64,000 nt of DNA from Dehalococcoidia bacterium (GTDB lineage Bacteria; Chloroflexota; Dehalococcoidia; Lucifugimonadales; GCA-002694895): contig JAPYRX010000001.1 in the NCBI GenBank assembly GCA_029936815.1, positions 68,256-132,255 of the forward strand, given 5' to 3'. Below the pieces are notes generated by a model. It made no database searches, was not told the origin of the DNA, and was given only the letters and a program-made list of their open reading frames with translations. Below are positions 31,017-34,629 of the stretch, in pieces; position 1 is the first letter of the stretch, and every line of letters starts with the position of its first letter. The position numbers and the translations under genes are program-made.

Positions 31017-31898
31017 ATGAAAAATATATTTAATATATCTGAAAAACTAAAATTACCTGACAATGAAATCGTTGCCATTTCTAACCTTAGACCGTGGATA
31101 AATGCTGGCAGAGTCGGTACTATATCTTTGAACAAATTAAAGAACTTAACAAACGCAAAAGAAATAGGATCGCTTGATGATCCGGGAACTTTTTTTGATT
31201 TCACTAGGTATAGACCTAGATTCAAATATGAAAATGAAACAAGAAAATTAATTATTCCCAACATAAAAATTCACTTAGGACATCATAAAAATAAAAATAT
31301 TTCCTTTTTATTTATTGATTTAAGAGAACCTCACTATAATTCACAGCTTCTGATTGATTCGATATATCAATTTTTATCACAAAGTAAGATTCAAGAATAT
31401 TGCAGAATAGGCAGCATGTATGATTCTGTGCCGCATACAAGACCAATGATTGTAAGTGGGGCAAACACAAGTAATACCAAATTAATTAACACATCAAATA
31501 ACAAGTACCAAGGACCTACAAGTATTTTAAATCTTTTATCTGAAAAACTAACTGCAAATGGCGTTAAATCATCCACTCTAATGGCTCATATTCCGCAATA
31601 TATACAATTAGATAACGATTATTTCGCATCTGCAAAAGTACTAGAATGTTTGGCTGAAATGTATGACTTAGACAAATCAATTGCAGATAAATCGTTTGGA
31701 GAAACACAATATAACGATTTTACAGAATCTCTAAAATTTAATAGCGAATTAAACAAACTAGTAAGTGCTTTAGAAAAATACTATGATTCAAATTATTCTG
31801 AAAAGAAATCTGATGTGAGCAATGCAGACACGCCGATGTCAAACGAATTAGAAAATTTCCTGGATAATATATCATCAAAATTTGAAGATAATAACTAA
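31017..31898 (+). CDS. PAC2-family protein (proteasome-assembly-chaperone-2-like)
   Basis: 293 residues. The pattern ISNLRPWINAGRVGTISLNKL...AKEIGSLDDPGTFFDFTRYRP at the start and STLMAHIPQYIQLDNDYFASAKVLECLAEMYDL near residue 200 fit the PAC2 fold (COG2047), an ATP-grasp-associated or proteasome-chaperone-like domain found in archaea, actinobacteria and Chloroflexi. The acidic C-terminal tail may bind partners. Whether this organism has a proteasome cannot be seen here; no proteasome genes are in the window. It is the last protein gene of the pheS operon; tRNA-Pro begins four bases later. Confidence 0.65.
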   Translation: MKNIFNISEKLKLPDNEIVAISNLRPWINAGRVGTISLNKLKNLTNAKEIGSLDDPGTFFDFTRYRPRFKYENETRKLIIPNIKIHLGHHKNKNISFLFIDLREPHYNSQLLIDSIYQFLSQSKIQEYCRIGSMYDSVPHTRPMIVSGANTSNTKLINTSNNKYQGPTSILNLLSEKLTANGVKSSTLMAHIPQYIQLDNDYFASAKVLECLAEMYDLDKSIADKSFGETQYNDFTESLKFNSELNKLVSALEKYYDSNYSEKKSDVSNADTPMSNELENFLDNISSKFEDNN

Positions 31899-31902
31899 AT
31901 TA

Positions 31903-31974
31903 CGGGGTGTGGCGCAGTGGTAGCGCGCCTGTTTTGGGAACAGGAGGTCGTCGGTTCGACCCCGACCACCCCGA
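31903..31974 (+). tRNA. tRNA-Pro (anticodon TGG)
   Basis: The acceptor stem CGGGGTG (31903-31909) pairs with CACCCCG (31967-31973); discriminator A at 31974; no encoded CCA. Anticodon stem CCTGT/ACAGG encloses loop TTTGGGA with anticodon TGG at 31935-31937. The T arm contains GGTTCGACC. It starts four bases after the PAC2-family gene, so it is probably processed from the operon transcript. A decayed copy of its 3' half lies at 33716-33748. Confidence 0.97.
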
Positions 31975-32000
31975 TAAGCAATAATTTAAGGGATAAAATT

Positions 32001-32585
32001 TCAACTTATATTTAATGTTCTCCTTAAATCATTAATAGTTTCCAATCTTGTGCGTGCTTTACGCTTTTCTCTTAAGCCCATAGGTAAGTTTTCGATCTCT
32101 GGCTTCGTTTTTACAGCAACAAAAACAGGGCCTTCTGAATCCATAATCTCTTCTAAATGAATTGATAATTCTTCTAAATCTGTAAAATTATATGTAGTCG
32201 GATATCCTGCTCCTTTTGCCATCATAGCATAATCAATCTCTTCATGATTTGGAACTGGTTGTCCTCCAGTTGTAGCATAACATTCATTATCAAGTAAAAA
32301 ATGAATAAAATTCTTTGGTTTCTTATTTGCTATAGAAGCTAAAACGCCTAAATTCATTAGCAATGCTCCTTCAGTATCAAAATGAACAACTTTTTCGTTT
32401 TCTAAGCCTAAAGCCAATCCAAAAACGGCAGATGTACTTTGACCCATCGCACTACCAAGAGTAATATCTTTATTAGGGTTTGTGCTAATTTCCTTCCAAT
32501 GATGTCCAGATGTGCCCTGAACATGCACTATAGAATCTCCACGATGCTTTTGAAATTCTTCAAATACTTTCTTTGCTTCTATCAT
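32001..32585 (-). CDS. comE: Sulfopyruvate/phosphonopyruvate decarboxylase-type TPP enzyme, beta (cofactor-binding) subunit
   Basis: 194 residues matching the C-terminal, pyrophosphate-binding half of ThDP decarboxylases: LGSAMGQSTSAVFGLALGL, then the ThDP/Mg motif FDTEGALLMNLG (Asp70, Glu72-Gly73) ending 28 residues later at DNECYATTGGQ (Asn100). The split into two small subunits with the next gene is the layout of ComDE sulfopyruvate decarboxylase and of some phosphonopyruvate decarboxylases. The product would be sulfoacetaldehyde or phosphonoacetaldehyde; substrate choice cannot be made from the sequence. It lies 24 bases after the alpha gene, inside the scarred segment next to tRNA-Pro. 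Confidence 0.8.
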   Translation of the reverse strand: MIEAKKVFEEFQKHRGDSIVHVQGTSGHHWKEISTNPNKDITLGSAMGQSTSAVFGLALGLENEKVVHFDTEGALLMNLGVLASIANKKPKNFIHFLLDNECYATTGGQPVPNHEEIDYAMMAKGAGYPTTYNFTDLEELSIHLEEIMDSEGPVFVAVKTKPEIENLPMGLREKRKARTRLETINDLRRTLNIS

Positions 32586-32609
32586 TTAATCATCCTCTTT
32601 TTTATAAAT

Positions 32610-33125
32610 TTATCTATTGAAGCCATGGTATTCATCACCTATCAAAACTACTACAGGCTGTTTTGTAGCAACAGATTCTTCATATGCTTCTGAAATTCTT
32701 GCCCCATCTTCATTTTGTTCAACCAAATAATAATTTATTCTAAATGCATTCAAAAATGGCTCAGTATATATTGCAGCTGAATCAGGTGTTTTTCCTTTTC
32801 TTGTCCATCCTCTATATCCAACAATCATAAGCAAGGGAAATCCAATGTCTAAAGCCATCCCTCTGATGGAATCTCCAGATTCTAACATCCCAGTATTTTG
32901 AATTAAAACTACAGGTGTTTTGCCTGCTACATTTAAACCTAAAGCAGTAGCCATGGATTCTCCTTCTCTTGAAACTGGAATAACATCAAGCCAGTCTTGT
33001 TGTTCCATGAGTTCATAAAGATAGTTAGTTTCACTATCAGGAATAGTTATTATGTGAGTTACTCCAATTTTTTTAAATTCATCTAATAGTGTTTCTGGTC
33101 TCAAAATTGCTGATTGATCACTCAT
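32610..33125 (-). CDS. comD: Sulfopyruvate/phosphonopyruvate decarboxylase-type TPP enzyme, alpha subunit
   Basis: 171 residues matching the N-terminal (pyrimidine-binding) half of ThDP decarboxylases. The catalytic-type glutamate lies in VSREGESMATALGL (Glu54/Glu56), followed by TPVVLIQNTGMLESGDSIRGM, characteristic of sulfopyruvate decarboxylase alpha. GGTGG precedes the ATG by four bases. A promoter is predicted at 33170-33197. Upstream lies a 5'-truncated dppC fragment on the same strand, suggesting the pair once followed a peptide-type transporter operon. Confidence 0.8.
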   Translation of the reverse strand: MSDQSAILRPETLLDEFKKIGVTHIITIPDSETNYLYELMEQQDWLDVIPVSREGESMATALGLNVAGKTPVVLIQNTGMLESGDSIRGMALDIGFPLLMIVGYRGWTRKGKTPDSAAIYTEPFLNAFRINYYLVEQNEDGARISEAYEESVATKQPVVVLIGDEYHGFNR

Positions 33126-33169
33126 TACGCCACCATAATTAATATCTAAAAACTATAATAATATAATTT

Positions 33170-33197
33170 AGTATAACTAATTTATATTATTAAACAA
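33170..33197 (-). promoter_or_regulatory. Putative promoter for the decarboxylase genes
   Basis: On the minus strand TTGTTT (33192-33197), 16 bases, TATACT (33170-33175), in the gap between the dppC fragment and comD. Surrounding DNA is very AT-rich, so chance matches are likely. Confidence 0.35.
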
Positions 33198-33206
33198 ATA
33201 ATAATC

Positions 33207-33431
33207 TCAATTTTTCTGATCCATGGAATGCTTTAGCTTTGGATCAAGAAAATCTCTTAATGTATCTCCTAAAATATTAAATGCTATAACTACGACAAAT
33301 ATTGCAAAGGGGAAATATAGGAATCCACCAAGCGGCCTGACATATTGTCTTCCAGTTACTACCAAAGCTCCCCATTCAGGCACTGGAGATTGTGCCCCAG
33401 CTCCCATAAAGCTTAATCCTGAAGCAAATTT
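33207..33431 (-). pseudogene. dppC-type permease, C-terminal fragment
   Basis: About 70 codons encode only the end of a DppC-family permease (GLSFMGAGAQSPVPEWGALV ... FNILGDTLRDFLDPKLKHSM). An ATG at 33467 keeps the frame open, but residues upstream of about 33431 do not look like DppC and overlap a different gene fragment on the other strand. The first two thirds of the permease are gone, so it cannot work. The sequence is distinct from both intact dppC genes in the window, so it comes from a third locus. Confidence 0.8.
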
Positions 33432-33590
33432 CATGGTGAGTTTTGGAAAGCTTCTAAATATTGGCATAACGGTGCGATTGTAAAAGCATCTTTTGAATAT
33501 GTAGGACTTTATGGTGGCCCTGTAATACCTCCTTTCAGAGAATTAAACAAAAGTGAAAAAATGAATTGTTTGCTATCATGGATAATATGA
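33432..33590 (+). pseudogene. Dihydrodipicolinate-synthase/aldolase-family (DapA-like) C-terminal fragment
   Basis: The plus frame opens after a stop at 33420 and ends at a TGA at 33588-33590. From about 33432 it reads EFWKASKYWHNGAIVKASFE followed by YVGLYGGPVIPPFRELNKSE. This matches the end of DapA/N-acetylneuraminate-lyase-family proteins (VKAxLExxGLxGGPVRPPL). About 50 residues of the usual 290-300 remain and there is no start. It meets the truncated dppC fragment head to head at about 33431. The family call rests on one conserved region. Confidence 0.6.
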
Positions 33591-33715
33591 ATGTTAAAAA
33601 ACAATAATTCATATCAACTGATTTATTACTAAAATAAAAAATTTTGATGTTAGTTAAGGATCTGAAATTAGAAGAAGAGGATATGCAAGTATATTAGAAA
33701 TCTTACTTCACATTA

Positions 33716-33748
33716 TTTGAGAACAAGAGGGCGACGGGTCGACCTTGA
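33716..33748 (+). pseudogene. Decayed copy of the 3' half of tRNA-Pro
   Basis: These 33 bases align without gaps to tRNA-Pro 31933-31965 (anticodon loop through T loop) with 26 identities; the T-arm core CGGGTCGACC and the GAACAAGAGG segment are recognisable. The 5' half and the acceptor strand are absent, so no tRNA can form. It marks the right edge of a segment of about 1.8 kb beginning at the intact tRNA. The 125 bases before it (33591-33715) hold no gene, only an 18-codon GNAT-like scrap (EIRRRGYASILE at 33664-33699), too short to call. Confidence 0.65.
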
Positions 33749-33750
33749 TA

Positions 33751-34629
33751 CTAGTTCGATAAAAAATCTTCTAAGATTTTAAAATAACTTTTAGGTTCTT
33801 CATAAAAAGGCATATGCGAGCTATTTTGAAATATCTTTAATTTAGCATTAGGCAAGGAATTATTCATTCTCATCGCACAGGATGGAGTCAATTCGTCATG
33901 CATTCCTACAGTAATTAAAGATGGAACATTAATATCTTTCATTTCTTCAATTCTATTCCAATTTTTTAAATTACCTGTATACAAAAATTCGTTTGGCCCT
34001 TGCATTGTTCCATAAACATTCATATTCCAATCATCTAACGAATCATAAATTGATTTAGGCCAAATATTTAATCTACAAAGATGACGATAATTTAAAATAG
34101 TAATTGCAGCTTGATATTCTTCATGATCTAAAGTGCCTTCAGCTTCATGTTTCATCATCATCTTAACAGTTTCACTTCCCAGGCCATTACGCAATCTGTT
34201 AAGCTCGTCTATAAGATGCGGCATATCTCCACAAGTATTTTCTAATATTAATTTTTTGATATTATTTTGGTATTTAATAGCATATTCTATCCCAAGCCAT
34301 CCTCCCCATGAATGACCTAATAAAATAATCTCTCCCAAATCTAATTTATTTCTTACATACTCAACTTCTTCAACGTATCTTTGTATATTCCACAATGATT
34401 TATCTTTTGGTTTACTAGATTTTCCGCACCCTAACTGATCATAAGTAACGACTCTATATCCTTTATTTACTAATTGCAAATGAGGATCTCTCAAATAATT
34501 ACATGGAAGTCCAGGGCCTCCATTTAATAAAAATATTGTTTCAACATTTTTACTTTGCCCTGTATCATAGCAAACAAGATCAAATTCATTATACTTTAAG
34601 TATATTTCTTTATATTTATAATCGCTCAA
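33751..34629 (-). CDS. pip: Proline iminopeptidase-family alpha/beta hydrolase
   Basis: 292-residue cytosolic hydrolase. The prolyl iminopeptidase signature [11 protein letters not shown] (HGGPG-like oxyanion loop), the nucleophile Ser107 in GHSWGG, Asp245 (GMHDELTP) and His272 ([10 protein letters not shown]) are all present. It likely removes N-terminal proline from di- and tripeptides, though GHSWGG enzymes also include amidases and lactonases. The start is TTG at 34629, overlapping the gyrA stop codon by four bases (TTGA), so it is translationally coupled to gyrA, an odd partner. Confidence 0.85.

Follow-up and report, generated by a model that had tools for sequence, protein, structure and literature searches.

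Behind the tRNA-Pro(TGG) gene of a small ocean genome lies an island that we read, with a probability of roughly two in three, as the shrunken and old scar left by DNA that integrated into the anticodon loop of this tRNA gene. This reading is supported by a displaced tRNA half that is beyond chance and specific to tRNA-Pro, by empty sites in relatives, and by halves of tRNA-Leu and tRNA-Gly that open at the same crossover base. Its weak points are the lack of an integrase, the loss of the last 9 tRNA bases and of the adjoining spacer, the lack of conspicuous arm repeats beside the half, and the lack of any other tRNA-Pro half in the eight genomes searched.

The island is part of the 64,000-nucleotide stretch that was analyzed (the window; GC content 32.8%), which belongs to a draft genome (G000) of 1.46 Mb that is 89.7% complete. 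Genome-streamlined SAR202 bacteria have been described (PMC11994032); the small size and low GC of the present genome fit this group, and we infer that the host belongs to it.

A displaced half of tRNA-Pro

The intact tRNA-Pro(TGG), which would have been the integration target, occupies 31903..31974 on the plus strand (ARAGORN; Rfam RF00005, 69.6 bits). On the same strand, at 33716..33748, lies a decayed and displaced copy of its 3' half, which is att-like. The first-pass annotation had reported a gapless match of 33716-33748 to tRNA-Pro positions 31933-31965 with 26 of 33 identities, starting at the anticodon loop, and we reproduced this alignment exactly: the similarity opens at tRNA index 31, where the loop TTTGGGA has its first base (stem CCTGT). 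It stops at index 63 of the 72-base tRNA, and the final 9 bases are missing or rewritten before the stop codon of the pip gene at 33751. Only 2 bp separate the half from this stop codon, and the spacer of 40-70 bp found in relatives is gone, so that a further small deletion is required at this end. Rfam and ARAGORN detect the intact tRNA-Pro alone at the locus and leave the decayed half unscored.

The imperfect match (26/33) and the lack of an Rfam score could mean that the 33-base stretch resembles tRNA-Pro by chance. In local matching scored +1/-1, the top match of tRNA-Pro to the 1776-bp stretch behind it is this half, with a score of 19 (tRNA index 31-59), whereas none of 1000 dinucleotide-preserving shuffles of the stretch reaches that score (maximum 14) and random-order shuffles of the flanks of 39 tRNA neighbourhoods peak at 13. 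Chance is thus excluded in practice. The half is not derived from another tRNA either, since among 38 distinct tRNA sequences collected from the genome tRNA-Pro(tgg) scores 19 and the runner-up 9. Chance and a closer, unrelated tRNA were among the findings that the first-pass annotation had named as able to refute it, and the match withstood both. Integrase arm-type repeats do not stand out beside the half, and no other tRNA-Pro half, besides the tRNA genes themselves, was found in the eight genomes searched.

Empty sites, cargo and debris

The order moeA, small orf, PAC2 gene, tRNA-Pro, variable segment, pip and gyrA is conserved in the congeners in which the locus is assembled; it is complete in three genomes (G001, G002, and G004) and present from the tRNA rightwards in L152 (MED1261), the contig of which ends inside the tRNA. 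In the window, the left flank is a PAC2-family gene (31017..31898, plus strand; PF09754, E 6.5e-24), found at the same place before tRNA-Pro in G001, G002, and G004, and the right flank is a pip-type alpha/beta hydrolase gene of the proline iminopeptidase family (33751..34629, minus strand; TIGR01250, 283.7 bits, above the cut-off). The distance from tRNA-Pro to pip is 1776 bp in the window genome (about 1.74 kb from tRNA to half), but about 42 bp in G004, about 70 bp in G002, and about 65-70 bp in L152. A comparison with relatives had been proposed at first pass as a check, and these three, which join tRNA-Pro to pip within about 40-70 bp, confirm an insertion behind tRNA-Pro.

At the same site, G001 carries an unrelated insert of 578 bp that is mostly non-coding (L023 2385-2962, G001:C7) and in which no tRNA half is detectable. 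A possible integrase remnant in this insert was rejected, its translated ORF having no Pfam match. The insert also holds a copy of an interspersed repeat described below and a direct repeat with a 12-bp period (TGTACCCATAAATGTACCC). The PAC2 gene of the window is 82.6% identical to that of G004 and 71% to those of G001/G002, and L152 shares 89% DNA identity with G004 over 3.6 kb; this pattern suggests that G004 with L152 and G001 with G002 form separate lineages. Because empty sites occur in both, the inserts here and in G001 are most simply explained as separate gains. The L152 record, NZJM01000071.1, is titled 'Legionellales bacterium MED1261', a label that looks wrong for a contig 89% identical to a Chloroflexota congener.

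Two intact genes, both antisense to tRNA-Pro, make up the cargo. The ComE-like gene (32001..32585, minus strand) is sulfopyruvate decarboxylase beta-like and encodes a TPP enzyme C domain (PF02775, E 1.1e-14); the ComD-like gene (32610..33125, minus strand) is sulfopyruvate decarboxylase alpha-like and encodes a TPP enzyme N domain (PF02776, E 1.9e-9). Their NCBIfam scores lie under the equivalog cut-offs (TIGR03846, 105 bits against 221.5, and TIGR03845, 79 bits against 148, respectively). The pair is under purifying selection: compared with the copies in G002, dN/dS is about 0.10 for the ComE-like gene and 0.047 for the ComD-like gene (92% amino acid identity), with a range of 0.05-0.12 for the pair, and the core gene pip gives similar values (0.09-0.13). 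In G002 the pair has another genomic context. TPP enzymes usually carry a GDG motif; at this site the ComE-like protein (32001-32585) has FDTEGALLMN and the G056 relative has FDAEGSLLMN.

To the right of the pair lie parts of three genes, which give an identity to the gene fragments mentioned at first pass. The first is the 3' end of a dppC-type ABC-transporter permease gene (33203..33428, minus strand; about 226 bases, with indels), 75-77% identical in DNA to the intact dppC of G001 and G002. The second is the 3' end of a DapA-family gene (33426..33606, plus strand; 181 bases), 78-79% identical to the G001 and G002 genes. Intact orthologues of both are present in these two congeners, but none was found in this draft genome, where the nearest dppC paralogue shares 44% and the nearest dapA relative 27% amino acid identity. 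The cut ends of the two relics are fused at a shared 5-bp microhomology, GCAAA; one deletion within an insert that was formerly larger, and that held divergent dppC and dapA, could have produced this fusion. The third relic (33625..33685, plus strand) consists of the first 61 bases, at the 5' end, of a homocysteine S-methyltransferase gene (family from Pfam PF02574); it is about 77% identical over these 61 bases to the G001 gene, a score reached by 0 of 300 shuffles, and its ATG start codon reads ATT. An intact copy of this gene is found elsewhere in the genome (G000:C11:44071-44961). The decay postulated at first pass therefore holds for the right-hand 0.6 kb of debris, but not for the decarboxylase pair, which selection maintains.

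Under the integration reading, a circular DNA bearing a copy of the tRNA 3' part would have crossed over with the chromosome where the anticodon loop begins, in a reaction driven by a tyrosine integrase that is now gone. The anticodon loop is one of the recognized crossover sites of tRNA-targeting integrases (PMC4383910). The incoming copy would have restored tRNA-Pro, and the original 3' part would have been displaced to the far side, by pip, where it decayed. The comDE-like pair would have been carried or retained as cargo and kept by selection, while the remaining insert shrank by deletions, at least one of them via the 5-bp microhomology, to the ends of dppC, dapA, and the homocysteine S-methyltransferase gene.

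Both cargo and relics are as diverged from their congeners as core genes are, which indicates the gene pool of the genus, unlike recent foreign DNA, and means that cargo and half may have arrived separately. It is conceivable, if rather unlikely, that the half stems from an older integration and that comDE and the gene pieces entered a variable site behind the tRNA later, by illegitimate or homologous recombination. The core-like divergence of the cargo agrees with such a history, as do the dppC/dapA junction at a microhomology, which is a rearrangement product, the other context of comDE in G002, and the unrelated G001 insert at the same place with no detectable tRNA half. However, a single integration would put the half at the outer edge of the insert, exactly where it lies, and in this genome single genes flanked by tRNA halves are normal cargo, as the tRNA-Leu array described below shows.

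We found neither an integrase gene nor a piece of one in the island, as had been claimed for the segment between the two tRNA copies; the empty sites support the earlier proposal of an old integrated element that has lost its integrase. The genome encodes only two PF00589 proteins, both XerC/XerD-type with orthologues across the genus. A recombinase HMM based on sequences from the genus and from one relative found no match in 38 tRNA-Pro neighbourhoods (mostly about 1.5 kb on each side), although a Xer-based HMM of this kind would miss a divergent integrase. In G002, a partial tyrosine integrase runs off a contig end (G002:C20:8-184, L091; ...LNTGCRKSEALGLRWKDVDF...); it is unlike the Xer pair, bears a phage-type resemblance, and is a candidate for the integrase that this genus would have used. 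A search of 2.9 million viral contigs for the exact tRNA halves gave no match.

Halves of tRNA-Leu and tRNA-Gly

We surveyed 39 tRNA neighbourhoods of this genome, up to 12 kb downstream of each, and obtained two clear cases, tRNA-Pro and tRNA-Leu(taa). A scan for the 3' halves of 37 tRNAs covered part of the genome, mainly tRNA neighbourhoods (about 0.49 Mb including overlaps). Matches to tRNA-Gln and tRNA-Ser halves (scores 15 and 14) were poor alignments, the former inside an apparent ilvD gene, and were judged to be chance.

Three tandem single-gene cassettes follow tRNA-Leu(taa) (G000:C33:1-4874, minus strand, within L244 = G000:C33:1-5000); their genes encode a TM2-domain protein, a GNAT acetyltransferase, and a DUF2779 nuclease-like protein. 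Each cassette is closed by a tRNA-Leu 3' half (93-94%, 87-90%, and 100% identical to the tRNA), and the starts of the three halves coincide with the first base of the loop CTTAAAA or lie no more than 3-4 bases from it. All three genes are antisense to tRNA-Leu, as comDE is to tRNA-Pro, and no integrase was found in the three cassettes. Contig C24, which holds the window, ends in the exact 55 bases that open C33 (L293 11726-11780 = L244 1-55), and a lipoprotein gene (545 aa) spans the junction; judging from this overlap, the two contigs are probably adjacent. Next on C24 are a fourth, decayed tRNA-Leu half (L293 10714-10779) and a half of tRNA-Gly(gcc).

Some further repeats were seen in the course of these searches. 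Decayed 3' halves of tRNA-Leu(taa), starting from the anticodon loop, lie in intergenic DNA away from tRNA-Leu in G002:C25 (L292 1102-1155) and in G001:C4 (L291 2379-2424); the former is 20 bp from the stop codon of a GNAT gene with 85% DNA identity to the GNAT gene of the array. Short direct repeats with a 10-12-bp period, which resemble putative arm-type sites, accompany several tRNA-Leu halves (AAATGGCACCGCAAATGGCACC, CTTGACCATATCTTGACCAT) and also occur behind the G001 tRNA-Pro; they are missing beside the tRNA-Pro half and were therefore not used as evidence. An interspersed repeat about 65 bp long (approximate consensus TTGTTAGTTGATAGGGGGTATGGCTTAGGTGTTGTGGTTGTAGGTTGTACATACCTGTGACAATTTTTTT) is present in at least 10 copies in G000 (L092-L097) and G001 (L098, L099, L023), several of them within about 0.5 kb of tRNA-Trp, Gln, Ala, Gly, and (in G001) Pro. 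It has no Rfam match, and its 27-base core is absent from the window.

The tRNA-Gly(gcc) halves of G000 (47/51 identities) and G001 (96%) both begin at the first loop base. In each genome, the half forms a 1084-bp block with a gene of the FAA-hydrolase family (L293 7529-8611 in G000:C24; L306 5043-6126 in G001:C37). Overall identity of the block between the two genomes, which represent two species, is 94%; most of the gene body and the half reach 95-98% (up to 97.6% in the gene body), compared with about 81% for the core pip-gyrA DNA, and the flanks of the block differ. Such a pattern is what the transfer of one gene would leave; uneven conservation of a single gene might produce it but is unlikely at the DNA level.

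These halves also bear on the idea that tRNA-Pro was duplicated in tandem, after which the 5' half of the second copy disappeared and genes inserted later separated this copy from the first, with no site-specific recombinase involved. A single decayed copy and no integrase are what this history would leave. Nevertheless, random truncation would not give a start at exactly loop base 1, as in the Leu and Gly halves, and relatives have a single tRNA-Pro at the locus. The finding of second sites with the same crossover base disfavours tandem duplication, which we consider improbable.

A bolder proposal, which we offer tentatively and regard as doubtful, is that the genus moves single genes as integrase-less cassettes of about 0.5-1.8 kb tagged with tRNA halves, which would stack behind tRNAs in an integron-like manner and spread between species by means of a recombinase acting in trans (a host Xer-type enzyme or one from a helper element). 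The tRNA-Pro scar would then be a worn member of this set. More generally, the present results indicate that even an ocean genome as strongly reduced as this one (about 1.5 Mb) retains a route by which genes are added at tRNA sites, and that within the island the part kept by selection, the decarboxylase pair, can be separated from the decaying part. The tRNA-Leu array and the tRNA-Gly unit shared across species make this route testable in SAR202, the question being which recombinase mobilizes units of one gene that do not themselves encode such an enzyme.

Comparison with known systems

Tycheposons, as summarized in PMC10872708, carry a XerD-like tyrosine recombinase in a tRNA-bounded element with 4-200 kb of cargo, unlike the 1.8-kb island described here, which has no recombinase. 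The island also differs from an integron cassette array (IntI plus attC) in that the PF00589 proteins are just the two of Xer type and the repeats are tRNA halves. The islands recognized by Islander (PMC4383910), for which the crossover subsites are the anticodon loop, the T loop, or the T/acceptor junction, are closer: as in these, an intact tRNA is followed downstream on the same strand (both plus) by a 3' fragment, here of the anticodon-loop crossover class. In contrast to Islander islands, our locus has no integrase, is shorter than 2 kb (1.74 kb), and has a fragment that stops at index 63/72, and for this reason we term it a scar and not a complete island. The fresh Leu and Gly halves do reach the 3' end of the tRNA.

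The additive island fGI-2 of the Methylophilaceae, at tRNA-Lys (PMC10872708), likewise varies in size, from 330 bp to 42 kb, and is marked by recurring partial tRNA copies. The repeats there correspond to the final 20 bases of the tRNA, whereas here they start at the anticodon loop and the fresh ones pass the 3' end.

Additive flexible genomic islands with tRNA direct repeats have also been described in 'Ca. Actinomarinales' (PMC7771536). These belong to another phylum, and their main case is a cell-envelope island of 43-79 kb with five tRNAs, whereas we found one small comDE island at tRNA-Pro and single-gene cassettes at tRNA-Leu. Common to both are streamlined marine bacteria and small gene cassettes inserted at tRNAs, for which intergenus transfer was reported in that group. 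The traits of an additive island are seen here as well: between the same flanks, the tRNA-Pro locus is empty in G002, G004, and L152 and holds 578 bp in G001 and 1776 bp in the window genome, and a partial tRNA repeat, decayed at tRNA-Pro and 87-100% identical at tRNA-Leu, closes the cassette. By this analogy, the kind is already known as additive flexible islands at the tRNAs of streamlined marine bacteria, of which the tRNA-Pro scar appears to be a further case.
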